Origin: a bacterium
GTDB lineage: Bacteria > SM23-31 > JAUVVT01
Length of the DNA stretch: 14,954 bases
Assembly: GCA_030616165.1 (NCBI GenBank)
Contig: JAUWXV010000070.1
Coordinates: 1-14,954, forward strand
Reading direction: 5' to 3'
Shown here piece after piece: positions 2,941 through 9,690 of the stretch. The stretch's first letter is position 1, and each line of letters starts with the position of its first letter. The notes below the pieces were generated by a model. That model ran no database searches. It was not told the DNA's origin and was given only the letters and a program-made list of their open reading frames with translations. Made by a program: the position numbers and the translations under genes.

Positions 2941-3064
2941 GGGTGAACCCGAAGGGCAGGCAAGTTCACCCCTACGCAGTTTGCGTAGGGGCGGATTTAC
3001 CCGCCCTCATTATAAGGGCGAAACCAAAGGACAAGCCCAAAGGACAGGCAAGTTCGCCCCTACG
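2941..3064. repeat. Two degenerate copies of a GGGYGAA...CAAGTTCRCCCCTACG intergenic repeat
   Basis: Copy one (2941-2976) and copy two (about 3016-3064) both run from GGGYGAAMCC through AGGRCAGGCAAGTTC to CRCCCCTACG. In each copy the ends GGGYGAA and TTCRCCC are inverted repeats of one another, so each can fold as a hairpin. Between them lies a 10-bp perfect hairpin (2969-2991) and an overlapping GGGCGG/CCGCCC pair (2989-2994 and 3001-3006). No gene is supported here. Confidence 0.7.
2969..2991. repeat. Perfect 10-bp hairpin with 3-base loop
   Basis: CCCCTACGCA (2969-2978) pairs exactly with TGCGTAGGGG (2982-2991) around the loop GTT. It joins the first copy of the surrounding repeat to a GGCGGATTTACCCGCC segment and is part of the same repeat cluster. 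There is no T-run on either side, so it is not called a terminator. Confidence 0.7.
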
Positions 3065-3100
3065 TGGGAATTTATCAGATACTATAAATATAACTACCTT

Positions 3101-3184
3101 TTGTCATTCCCGTGAAAACGGGAATCCAGAGCTAGAACTTATTTAAAACACAATACTGGATTCCCACTTTCGTGGGAATGACAA
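3101..3184. repeat. Nested palindromic repeat of the TTGTCATTCCCG...CGGGAATCCAG type
   Basis: The left arm (3101-3129) and right arm (3156-3184) are 29-base inverted repeats that agree at about 25 positions, separated by 26 AT-rich bases. Each arm is itself a small hairpin, ATTCCC...GGGAAT. This sequence type is known as a dispersed intergenic element in many bacteria. It resembles the MITE-like or dRS3-like class and carries no gene. Confidence 0.85.
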
Positions 3185-3466
3185 CTCTTGCTAATGATTT
3201 TTTTGATTATTTCTAAAAAAGTATTTTTATGAAACTCTTGTTTAGTATATAGCAAATTTAACAAAAAATCAAGTTATTTTATAAATTTTTTAAAAAAATC
3301 CTTACAAAAAAAATTTTCAATATAAGTTATATTTGAAAAAACTGTCGAAAAAGTCATAAAATGGACGATTTCAAAAAAATCTTTCTTCTATATAAAAAAA
3401 TACATAATTAAGTTAGTTATGATGAGAATATCACCCAAGGGAGCGATAAAAAGTAAAGTTTAAAAT
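3185..3466. other. AT-rich spacer downstream of the two-domain methyltransferase gene
   Basis: About 280 bases with runs of A and T and no coding frame worth naming. The only recognisable structure is a 33-base stretch at 3241-3273 that recurs at 6509-6541. Confidence 0.5.
3241..3273. repeat. AT-rich dispersed repeat, copy 1
   Basis: This 33-base stretch contains TATATAGCAAATTTAAC followed by AAAAATCAA. It matches 6509-6541 at 28 of 33 positions without gaps. Both copies lie 100-200 bases beyond the 3' end of a minus-strand gene. Low complexity raises the chance of coincidental similarity. Confidence 0.45.
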
Positions 3467-4483: not shown

Positions 4484-4589
4484 TGAATTCATCCTTTTTC
4501 TTTTCTTAAAAACAACTTTGAAGATTTATTCAGATTTTTGAGTTTTAGCAATATTGTGTTTAATTTATTAAAAGTTTTCAAAGTATCAA

Positions 4590-4662
4590 AACTTCGGGAA
4601 TTGAGTGACCTCAATATATCGTGAGAACAGCAAACTCACCATTAGGCGAAGTAGTTCAAATC
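4590..4662 (-). repeat. 3' element of the NicO-like gene with two internal hairpins
   Basis: The plus strand has AACTTCG (4590-4596), then hairpins TTGAG/CTCAA (4601-4614) and GTGAG/CTCAC (4621-4639), then TTAGGCGAAG-N4-TCAAATC (4642-4662), which touches the stop codon of the NicO-like gene. The flanks AACTTCG and GGCGAAG-N4-TCAAATC recur, without the hairpin insert, at 5511-5542 after the small methyltransferase gene. It may act as a 3' end or boundary element. There is no T-run typical of an intrinsic terminator. Confidence 0.5.
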
Positions 4663-5373
4663 TCACAGTCCCAAAAACTTGATTGCACCTCCACAAAGTA
4701 AAATTGTCAAGCCAGCCAATGCATGAGAATATTTTTCAAATTTCCGAAGTGATAAGTTTGATAACCCGTAAAACGAAGCAAAAACTATAAACAACATCGT
4801 TACAATAGTCGTCAATCCAAAAATAGACACAACTATTACTACATTTATTATACTACCCTTGGCTGCCGGATACATCACAAGAGGAATTAATGGTTCACAA
4901 GGACCAAATATAAATATTATAAAAAGAATCCAAGGTGTTAAACCGCCAGACTTCGGGTCGTGTACGTGAGAATGGCCTCCAGTATGCTTATGAGAGTGTA
5001 AATGGTCATCTCCATTTTCATGCAGATGTAGATGTTTATGGGGGCGACTGCGAATCGCTCTGTGCATTCCCCAGATGAAATATGTAACACCAAATGCAAT
5101 AAGAAGCCAAGCGGCTAATTCACCCCGAAATGACTCGACTGCTTCCAATTTGAAAACAGCAATACCCAGAAAGATGCCTATAAATCCTAAAACAACAGAA
5201 CTTAATACATGACCAATTCCACACAGAAACGTAATCACAGCAGTCTTCATACTGCTCCATTGTCTTGCTTTGGATAAGACAATGAAGGGTAAATAATGGT
5301 CTGGTCCCAGGATAGTATGAACAAATCCTATAGTCACAGCTGTTCCCGCTAAAATAACAAATTCGTTTGACAC
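4663..5373 (-). CDS. NicO/UreH-like (TauE/SafE-related) metal transporter with His-rich loop
   Basis: 236 residues with about six hydrophobic segments, an inner-membrane protein. The first helix carries HTILGPDH (19-26), a variant of the HX4DH motif of nickel/cobalt permeases with one extra residue. The second helix has GIGH (H55), and FGPCEPLIP lies at about 156-164. A cytosolic or periplasmic loop at 112-139 has 11 histidines in 28 residues (HKHLHLH, HLHSHKH, HSHVHD), as in RcnA/NicO-type nickel or cobalt transporters, so divalent metal transport is the best inference; direction and metal are not shown. The start codon is GTG with AAGGA six bases before it. A TTCACC-N18-TATAAT promoter-like pair lies 57 bases upstream inside a dispersed repeat. 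Confidence 0.75.
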   Translation of the reverse strand: MSNEFVILAGTAVTIGFVHTILGPDHYLPFIVLSKARQWSSMKTAVITFLCGIGHVLSSVVLGFIGIFLGIAVFKLEAVESFRGELAAWLLIAFGVTYFIWGMHRAIRSRPHKHLHLHENGDDHLHSHKHTGGHSHVHDPKSGGLTPWILFIIFIFGPCEPLIPLVMYPAAKGSIINVVIVVSIFGLTTIVTMLFIVFASFYGLSNLSLRKFEKYSHALAGLTILLCGGAIKFLGL

Positions 5374-5393
5374 AGTTATTCCTTATTTAATTA

Positions 5394-5402
5394 TTCGCCT
5401 AA
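5394..5402. repeat. Right half of a 9-bp inverted repeat that brackets the NicO-like gene
   Basis: TTCGCCTAA here is the exact reverse complement of TTAGGCGAA at 4642-4650. The two sit 20 bases before the GTG start and 12 bases after the stop of the NicO-like gene. The continuing sequence CGCCTAACG fits the RYYYAAC half-site of integron attC sites, but a matching full attC was not found. Confidence 0.5.
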
Positions 5403-5420
5403 CGTGTTGCGGCTAAATAT

Positions 5421-5479
5421 AAAGACAATATTATAGGCTATTTTACTGGTAGAGGTGAAGAACACCTCCGCCAGCAGAA
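5421..5479 (-). repeat. Dispersed repeat with embedded TATAAT, copy 1 (59 bases)
   Basis: It aligns with 9643-9690: the first 25 bases match at 23 positions and the last 19 at 17 positions. The middle is 15 bases here against 4 there. The extra piece creates a perfect hairpin GAGGTG-AAGAA-CACCTC. On the minus strand both copies contain TATAAT in the context AAAATAGC-N-TATAAT, and here it is positioned to transcribe the NicO-like gene. Confidence 0.6.
5430..5459 (-). promoter_or_regulatory. Candidate promoter of the NicO-like gene
   Basis: TTCACC (5454-5459) and TATAAT (5430-5435) on the minus strand are 18 bases apart. The -10 box is perfect and the -35 box matches TTGACA at four of six positions. 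The element lies within the dispersed repeat, so the repeat may supply the promoter. Confidence 0.4.
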
Positions 5480-5510
5480 AATAACTTTCAGTAAGTTTAA
5501 AAAGTTCCGA

Positions 5511-5542
5511 AACTTCGAGATTTTGGCGAAGCACATCAAATC
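5511..5542 (-). repeat. 3' element of the small methyltransferase gene
   Basis: AACTTCG (5511-5517) is followed after a short loop by GGCGAAG-N4-TCAAATC (5525-5542). CTTCG and CGAAG form a hairpin. Both flanks are identical to those at 4590-4596 and 4645-4662 behind the NicO-like gene. It lies 33 bases beyond the stop of the small methyltransferase gene. Confidence 0.5.
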
Positions 5543-5575: not shown

Positions 5576-6106
5576 CTATCCTACTTTCGAGAAACTATAT
5601 GTCCATTTGCCTTTTTTTAATAGTTTAAATAAGCCCGTATTTGTTACTTCGGGCAGTATTTCATCTTCTTTCATATGGTGGTCACTAAAAGATAAAATAG
5701 AACTTGGCTTCAGTATTCGATGTAACTCTGCTAATATTTCATTCGGCTCTTCAAATATATGAAAGACATCGTATAATAAGACAACATCAATAGTGGAGTT
5801 TTTCAATCCGGTTGCACAATCGGAACAAATAGTCTCTATATTTGTTATCCTCTTCTTCAAAGCACGTTTTTGAACAGTCTCAACAGCAAGGGGATGGATA
5901 TCCAAAGCATAAACCTTTCCAGACTCACCCACTAATTCACCGGCAGGGATTGAATAACTTCCGGAGCCGCAGCCGAAATCAAGTATATGAAATCCCGGTT
6001 GTATATCTACTTCCTTTAGTATCTTTTGCGGGGGAAAAAACAGGTCGCGAAATTTAAATAAAAGATACATGCCTTTTACGAAAATATTGCTCATTGGATT
6101 CTTCAA
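5576..6106 (-). CDS. Class I SAM-dependent methyltransferase (small, Methyltransf_11/25 type)
   Basis: 176 residues, cytosolic, with the core Rossmann fold only. The nucleotide-binding motif is LDFGCGSGSYS (DFGCGSG 43-49), followed by YALDIHP (D69, binds the SAM ribose), a segment ending ICSDCAT (about 93-99) and VVLLYDVFHIF (about 108-118). The N-terminal stretch KFRDLFFPPQKILKEVDIQPG is typical of a group of small bacterial methyltransferases of unknown acceptor. The frame opens with TTG at 6106, which has AAGGTAGGA a few bases before it. An in-frame ATG at 6094 (MSNIF) lacks a good ribosome binding site but is a natural-looking start. It is shorter at the C terminus than many relatives. 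Confidence 0.8.
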   Translation of the reverse strand: MKNPMSNIFVKGMYLLFKFRDLFFPPQKILKEVDIQPGFHILDFGCGSGSYSIPAGELVGESGKVYALDIHPLAVETVQKRALKKRITNIETICSDCATGLKNSTIDVVLLYDVFHIFEEPNEILAELHRILKPSSILSFSDHHMKEDEILPEVTNTGLFKLLKKGKWTYSFSKVG

Positions 6107-6447: not shown

Positions 6448-6508
6448 ATGTAAATCACTTCTAAATTTTTTAATATTTTACAGTTTCTTTAATGTATAAA
6501 AAATACAG

Positions 6509-6541
6509 TTAAATATATAGTAAATTTAACCAAAAATCAAA
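6509..6541. repeat. AT-rich dispersed repeat, copy 2
   Basis: Matches 3241-3273 at 28 of 33 ungapped positions, with the shared core TATATAG-Y-AAATTTAAC. It lies about 70 bases beyond the 3' end of the nuclease gene. Confidence 0.45.
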
Positions 6542-6610
6542 TGCTTTTAAAACATATCTTAAAAATCTTTGTCTTTTCTGCATCCATTTTTAGAATAAAT
6601 GAAACTAAGA

Positions 6611-8185
6611 CTAAAGTGGCAAGGTCTCAGCAAAACTGGGAATAAATATTTGGAACCCTTTTTGTTTTAGATGTTTGGCGAATGTTTCTATTGAATCTTT
6701 TTCTCCGTGTACCAGGGCGATTTTCTCAATCTTTAGATTCGATTCTGTAAGGAAGCGTGTCAATTCCGATTGGTCGGCATGTGCACTAAATCCATCTAAC
6801 TGTATTACCTCTGCCTTTAGAGGATATTCCTTATTCATGAATTTCACCCAGGGATAATCCCTGCCATTTCCTTTAGAAACCTCAGCAAGTTGGAGAATTC
6901 GGCGTCCCAGGGTATGTTCTGCTTGAAACCCCACGAAAAGAATTGTGTTCCGTGAATCGTGAATTTTATGACGGAGGTGGTGAAGAATCCTGCCCGCCTC
7001 ACACATTCCTGAAGCAGAAATGACAATATGAGGAGATTTATCACGATTTAAAGCCATTGATTCTTCAACCGTCTTAACATATTTAAGTTGTTTGAAACTA
7101 AAAGGATTCTCACCATTTTCCAAAAAAGTTTTATGTGTTTCGTAATCATAACATTCAGGATGTTCGCCAAAAACAGTTGTCAGATTCAGCGTGAGAGGGC
7201 TGTCCACATATACAGGCATCGATGGCAGTTTCCCTTCATTGTATAATTCATGAAGCATATAAATGAGGGTTTGTGACCGCTCCATTGCAAAAGAAGGTAT
7301 TATTACACTCCCCCCCCGTGCATAGGTTCGGTTAATTACTTCTTCCAGGTGGTTTTTCAAATTGCTAACAGGTTCATGCAGACGATTCCCATAAGTACTT
7401 TCCATAATCAGCAAGTCAAGGTGTTGGTGTTCAGGAGGAAACCACAGTGTGGGGTCACGCAGTATGGGAACCTGAAACCGCCCCAAATCGCCGGTGAAAC
7501 CTATTACGAATTTTTTCTGACCTTCCTTTATATCAATGATTATAATGGCAGAACCGAGGATATGTCCGGCATCATAAAAAGTGCAAGAAATATCCTTTCC
7601 CACTTCAACAGGTGTTTTGTAAGGATATCCTTCAAATTGTTCCAGGCATTCCTCTGCGTCCTTGATTGTGTACAGGGGAGTAATTTTCTGTAAGCCGTGT
7701 TTATCAATAACTTCCATAATTTTTTCTTTGTCAATGTACAACTTATTCTTTTTCAATATTTTCTTTACTTTCCGGATTTCCGCATTACTAAGGTGCCTGT
7801 GTTTTTTCCCGGATGTCATTTGTTCATAAAGAAATGCCCTCGCTGTTTTATAATTCAAATAATCAGCGTCTGATTCCTGTATGTGGGCACTATCCCGAAG
7901 CATGTATTCACATTCATCTTGGGTTGGACGCGTAGTTATGACCCGCCCCATAAATCCTTTCGATGAAAGCATCGGGATACGACCTGAATGGTCAACATGT
8001 GCATGAGAAAGTAAAACATTGGTGATGCTCTCGTTATTAAAAGAAAATTTTTCATTTTTTTTCTGACTTTCTTTACGTTTACCTTGAAAAAGACCGCAGT
8101 CCATCAGAATACGGTTATGTTTGGTAGTCAACAGATGTGAAGAACCTGTTACCTCGCTGCATGCCCCGAAAAAAGTTACATCCAT
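6611..8185 (-). CDS. MBL-fold metallo-hydrolase with beta-CASP and Zn-dependent RNA-specificity domains (CPSF/Ysh1-like nuclease)
   Basis: 524 residues, cytosolic, predicted zinc-dependent RNase of the CPSF73/COG1236 type, acting in RNA processing or decay. The metal site is nearly complete: HAHVDH (61-66), GHILGSA (H208), FTGDLGR (D233). The beta-CASP region includes ESTYGNRLHE, SFAMERSQTLIYML and SASGMCEAGRILHHL. The C-terminal RMMBL part has GFQAEHTLGRRIL, FSAHADQSEL and ALVHGE. It is longer than the usual 450-470 residues because of a Lys-rich insert at about 110-190. The ATG at 8185 follows GGAG by 8 bases. It is divergent from the CDF transporter gene. The target RNA is unknown. Confidence 0.88.
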   Translation of the reverse strand: MDVTFFGACSEVTGSSHLLTTKHNRILMDCGLFQGKRKESQKKNEKFSFNNESITNVLLSHAHVDHSGRIPMLSSKGFMGRVITTRPTQDECEYMLRDSAHIQESDADYLNYKTARAFLYEQMTSGKKHRHLSNAEIRKVKKILKKNKLYIDKEKIMEVIDKHGLQKITPLYTIKDAEECLEQFEGYPYKTPVEVGKDISCTFYDAGHILGSAIIIIDIKEGQKKFVIGFTGDLGRFQVPILRDPTLWFPPEHQHLDLLIMESTYGNRLHEPVSNLKNHLEEVINRTYARGGSVIIPSFAMERSQTLIYMLHELYNEGKLPSMPVYVDSPLTLNLTTVFGEHPECYDYETHKTFLENGENPFSFKQLKYVKTVEESMALNRDKSPHIVISASGMCEAGRILHHLRHKIHDSRNTILFVGFQAEHTLGRRILQLAEVSKGNGRDYPWVKFMNKEYPLKAEVIQLDGFSAHADQSELTRFLTESNLKIEKIALVHGEKDSIETFAKHLKQKGFQIFIPSFAETLPL

Positions 8186-9642: not shown

Positions 9643-9690
9643 AAAGACATTATTATATGCTATTTTATGGAAACACCTTCGCCGGCAGAA
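9643..9690 (-). repeat. Dispersed repeat with embedded TATAAT, copy 2 (48 bases)
   Basis: Aligns with 5421-5479 (23 of 25 and 17 of 19 positions in the two halves) but lacks 11 middle bases. Its TATAAT (complement of 9652-9657) points on the minus strand toward the 3' end of the CDF gene, where it could only make an antisense or short RNA. No matching -35 is evident in this copy. Confidence 0.55.

Follow-up and report, generated by a model that had tools for sequence, protein, structure and literature searches.

The transporter gene and its flanking motifs

The stretch of DNA analyzed here (14,954 nucleotides of contig JAUWXV010000070.1; the window) carries on its minus strand a gene (positions 4663 to 5373) for a LysE/DsbD_2-like membrane protein of 236 aa, the putative cassette gene considered below. 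A previous inspection of the letters alone (the sequence-only reading) had called the product NicO-like, which is a loose label: the nickel/cobalt efflux model matches it weakly (18.8 bits, far under the cutoff of 195), and its Pfam match is DsbD_2 (34.5 bits; cutoff, 24.9). The gene is present in 6 of the 60 genomes searched, its own genome counted; a search through a single genome for each GTDB species recovered 17 relatives, plasmids yielded a single distant match, and the gene tree leaves transfer versus no transfer unsettled. Upstream on the same strand lies a gene for a small SAM-dependent methyltransferase (positions 5576 to 6106), which may also be a former cassette; no 5' core site was found for it. 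Three other features of the window were recorded. A 58-base direct repeat, 78% identical between its copies (3240 to 3297 and 6508 to 6565), occupies the AT-rich spacers flanking the methyltransferase-transporter-methyltransferase block. A hairpin-rich region (2948 to 3184) holds inverted repeats of the CCCGAAGGGCAGGCAAGTTCACCCCTACG and TTGTCATTCCCG types, and parts of the region match many places in genome G001. The product of the gene at 6611 to 8185 is a beta-CASP metallo-beta-lactamase protein; among the NCBIfam models it matches type VII CRISPR Cas14 best (408 bits; cutoff, 800), ahead of archaeal aCPSF1.

The sequence-only reading had drawn attention to repeats bracketing the transporter gene, and all of them are present: TTAGGCGAA at 4642 to 4650 and its reverse complement at 5394 to 5402, separated from the gene by 12 and 20 bases, and the element GGCGAAG-N4-TCAAATC at 4645 to 4662 and 5525 to 5542, with its AACTTCG partner at 4590 to 4596 and 5511 to 5517. 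Across 200 shuffles of the window, TTAGGCGAA had a mean of 0.12 matches, and two matches were reached in 2 of them; the 18-base element was absent from the window shuffles, its pattern having been picked after the fact. A genome-wide search for this element recovered two copies in the 3.74-Mb metagenome-assembled genome (MAG), both inside the window, and the element is therefore not a dispersed repeat family. A candidate third copy of its right arm, on contig C248, lies inside a ParA-like gene and was rejected. The two 3' sites are alike over a further 31-base stretch at 77% identity; since this likeness has an E value of 0.5 to 0.9 and is not significant alone, the pair of 3' sites by itself is not strong.

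An integron gene cassette is a circle of one gene and one attC site, which the integron integrase opens between the G and the TT of the core site R'; the linear insert accordingly has TTRRRY at its start and attC at its end, attC itself starting with R'' (RYYYAAC). Set against this scheme, the most telling motif is the inverted pair around the transporter gene. Its 5' member, GTTAGGCGAA (5394 to 5403, minus strand), fits R' (GTTRRRY) as found at the 5' end of a cassette: the heptamer GTTAGGC (5397 to 5403, minus strand), 23 bases ahead of the start codon, conforms to the GTTRRRY core-site test. The 3' member, TTCGCCTAAT (4641 to 4650, minus strand), is a degenerate R'' at the gene's 3' end and can pair with the 5' site at 9 of its 10 bases (P = 0.002 against shuffled 3' spacers). 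Neither the genome of the window nor its relatives are enriched in GTTAGGCGAA, and a family of such sites in the relatives was rejected on that ground.

Candidate attC sites and the integrase search

Two minus-strand spacer sequences were weighed as decayed attC-like sites. Site A, 3' of the transporter gene (4574 to 4647), has two inner hairpins and no R'. Site B, in the methyltransferase/transporter spacer (5397 to 5527), can be laid out as R'' GCCAAAA, L'' GTTTCGG, L' CCGCAAC, and R' GTTAGGC; these boxes score 23 with a relaxed R'', and a rival arrangement using the same R' scores 24, a value reached by 1.8% of the shuffled versions of this spacer (P of about 0.02). The minimum-free-energy fold of the spacer pairs the same site B boxes. 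A strict scan of the window found no RYYYAAC/GTTRRRY pair with complementarity of at least 5/7, which bears out the caveat of the sequence-only reading that no complete canonical attC is present; the best score of a relaxed scan over the whole window was at the level of shuffles, and the R''-like sequences in the window are the degenerate GCCTAAT and GCCAAAA only. Sites A and B are at most wrecks of attC. No Rfam match was obtained, and an RNA family was rejected as the identity of the window's motifs.

Inside site B lies a copy of a REP-like dispersed repeat (5417 to 5481, plus strand; about 40 genomic matches), which interrupts the apparent decayed recombination site. Its typical form is ATATAAAGACATTATTATAGGCTATTTT followed by the whole or half of the hairpin GGCGAAGGTGAAGAACACCTTCGCC; a second copy in the window lies at about 9643 to 9690, and its loci in the genome of the window (G000) are L021 to L050. 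As far as is visible, the repeat is unrelated to the 3' motif. It does not occur near the RAYT-type (Y1_Tnp) transposase genes, and such a transposase was rejected as its mobilizer. These features bear on the view that the common 3' motif only marks a structured end of a gene, either resembling a terminator or left by a decayed interspersed repeat, with no relation to mobility. The single-stranded DNA fold of site A is indeed stabler than those of shuffles (z of −2.6), one terminator-like match falls there, and a dispersed repeat does sit within the neighboring spacer. We nevertheless give this explanation very little credence: it does not account for the matching 5' site or for the boundary shared with a homologous copy of the gene elsewhere (see below).

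A search of G000 (90% complete) for IntI found nothing above the cutoff, in agreement with the other caveat of the sequence-only reading. The best TIGR02249 proteins of this genome are XerC and XerD, and the candidates for an integron integrase of its own, being XerC/XerD and fragments, were rejected. With 7 sites versus 17 for the reversed control, G000 shows no enrichment of the terminus GTTAGGCGA. Elsewhere in this genome, contig C22 (896 to 1090 and 4185 to 4680 of locus L185) carries a pair of broken tyrosine-recombinase genes, and a ACGTTASCTGCAAGG-like sequence follows each of them; judged by eye, this contig resembles Bacteroidota, and it may be a contaminant from binning. On contig C237 (3118 to 3175 of locus L190), within a gene cluster resembling polysaccharide synthesis by eye, the intergenic inverted pair TTCGGTTAAC ... 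GTTAGGCGAA is a weak attC-like candidate; it was rejected as a site, its ends being complementary but its fold no better than shuffles.

A homologous transporter and the integron of its genome

The closest homolog of the transporter (81% amino acid identity; locus L069) lies among different genes on contig JAUXAN010000011 of another, seemingly unrelated MAG (G060; JAUXAN01, "bacterium CSMAG_2763"). At the DNA level, the two copies are 83% identical over a stretch whose 5' edge is sharp, at precisely GTTAGGC, and whose 3' edge fades shortly beyond the stop codon. The 100 bases beyond the 5' end agree at chance level (97% of shuffles were as good), and the 33-base leader inside that end is strongly conserved (bettered by none of 500 shuffles). 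Directly after the stop codon of the L069 copy stands ACTCAAC, which fits RYYYAAC; this copy is a lone gene without a full attC. In a protein search, none of the nine other window genes tested was found in the 16.7 kb around it, nor near any of the 17 transporter relatives. Comparison of 9.3 kb of the window with G060 matched only the transporter and the methyltransferase (68%); the G060 homolog of the latter was rejected as a cassette, no cassette ends being seen there. A comparison with an empty site after asnA was dropped, as neither G000 nor G001 has this gene. In another homologous copy (L070), the leader is partly similar and GTTAGGC is missing, so part of the leader shared with L069 may be inherited.

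G060 has 26 sites of the GTTAGGCGA pattern versus 14 for the reversed pattern, including four convergent pairs 576 to 728 bp apart (0.05 expected at less than 800 bp). On its contig 70, a C-terminal fragment of an integrase is followed by GTTAGGCGA, a gene that we named SnoaL-like by eye, and a canonical attC (GCCTAAC-AC-GGGGTTG ... CAACCCC-GGAAAC-GTTAGAT) whose L boxes are complementary over 7 bp; this attC occupies 2465 to 2544 of locus L167. The best NCBIfam match of the fragment is to positions 230 to 315 of TIGR02249 (105 bits, below the full-model cutoff of 265). Further attC-like sites on contig 13 have the outer sequence TTCG(C/T)CTAAC or TTCGCCCAAC. The integron lies at 1275 to 2550 of locus L167 (contig 70) and also at L168 and L165, with the integrase fragment codirectional with the cassettes, and comprises GTTAGGCGA termini, canonical attC sites, and scattered cassette-like units. 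G060 thus holds a real integron. The integrase fragment, the attC, and the attC-like sites carrying this outer sequence identify GTTAGGCGA as a cassette terminus in G060, and the transporter bears the same terminus in the genome of the window and in G060.

Some other single-gene mobile unit, such as an Xer/dif-flanked module (pdif) with inverted sites or a small transposon with inverted ends of about 20 bases, appears quite improbable. Like the pdif modules, the gene lies between inverted sites, and the likeness of its ends extends slightly inward of the 9-mer; the sites, however, do not follow the 28-bp dif pattern (compared by eye only), the genome has no family of such sites, and in G060 the corresponding terminus sits next to a canonical attC and a fragment of an integron integrase.

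A proposed origin as a stranded integron cassette

These comparisons lead us to favor as the simplest explanation, with a probability of about 0.5 (0.52), a reading of the transporter gene at 4663 to 5373 as a stranded, decayed integron cassette. The gene would have entered the lineage as an integron gene cassette, the insert beginning with GTTAGGCGAA and ending with TTCGCCTAAT, which is the reverse complement of the start bar one base. An integrase may have placed it in the lineage of the window or in an ancestor, and subsequent mutation together with the insertion of the REP-like repeat may then have wrecked the attC sites. The resemblance to known cassettes lies in GTTAGGC just 5' of the gene, the R''-like complement just 3' of the stop codon, and a unit of a single gene with an edge of similarity at the core site; the window differs in having no intact attC or array, and the genome has no integrase above the cutoff. 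The gene also resembles a CALIN (an attC cluster without an integrase) in lying away from any integrase, but both attC candidates of the window are degenerate, and no close pair of attC sites (at least two attC, the CALIN test) was found in it. The IntegronFinder 2 default for a CALIN is two attC sites, and cases with a single attC can be real (PMC9024848). Since the searches recovered neither complete attC sites nor an integrase, we do not class the locus as an intact integron or as a CALIN.

The main competitor, to which we assign an appreciable but less than even chance, is that this is an ordinary chromosomal gene, around which a 9- to 10-base inverted repeat and two common 3' motifs arose by chance in AT-rich spacers and whose L069-type leader was inherited with it. 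The missing site family in the genome, the shuffle-level attC scores over the whole window, and the L070 copy, which retains part of the leader without GTTAGGC, all agree with such an origin. It is less easily reconciled with an edge of similarity that, in two contexts unrelated to each other, coincides with a canonical core site, with the role of the same 9-mer as a cassette terminus in G060, or with the match of the 3' partner. Of the two forms in which the sequence-only reading had framed its cassette idea, the degenerate integron gained independent support from the cassette-like boundaries common with L069 in a different neighborhood and from the G060 integron with the same 5' terminus. 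The undescribed cassette type gained none: GGCGAAG-N4-TCAAATC forms no family in the genome, and GTTAGGCGAA shows no excess there or in the relatives; a separate single-gene system of this kind, with inverted ends of about 20 bases (GTTAGGCGAAG-N4-TCAAATC-like), common to uncultured bacteria and borrowing only an integron-like core, strikes us as very improbable.

The stranded-cassette reading points to no new mechanism. The spread of integron cassettes among very distant prokaryotes is already documented (PMC9668308), and the transporter would be one more instance of it. If the reading is true, stranded cassettes would be recognizable by their end motifs once attC has decayed, and integron recombination would have brought a metal- or ion-transport gene to uncultured bacteria now devoid of an integron.
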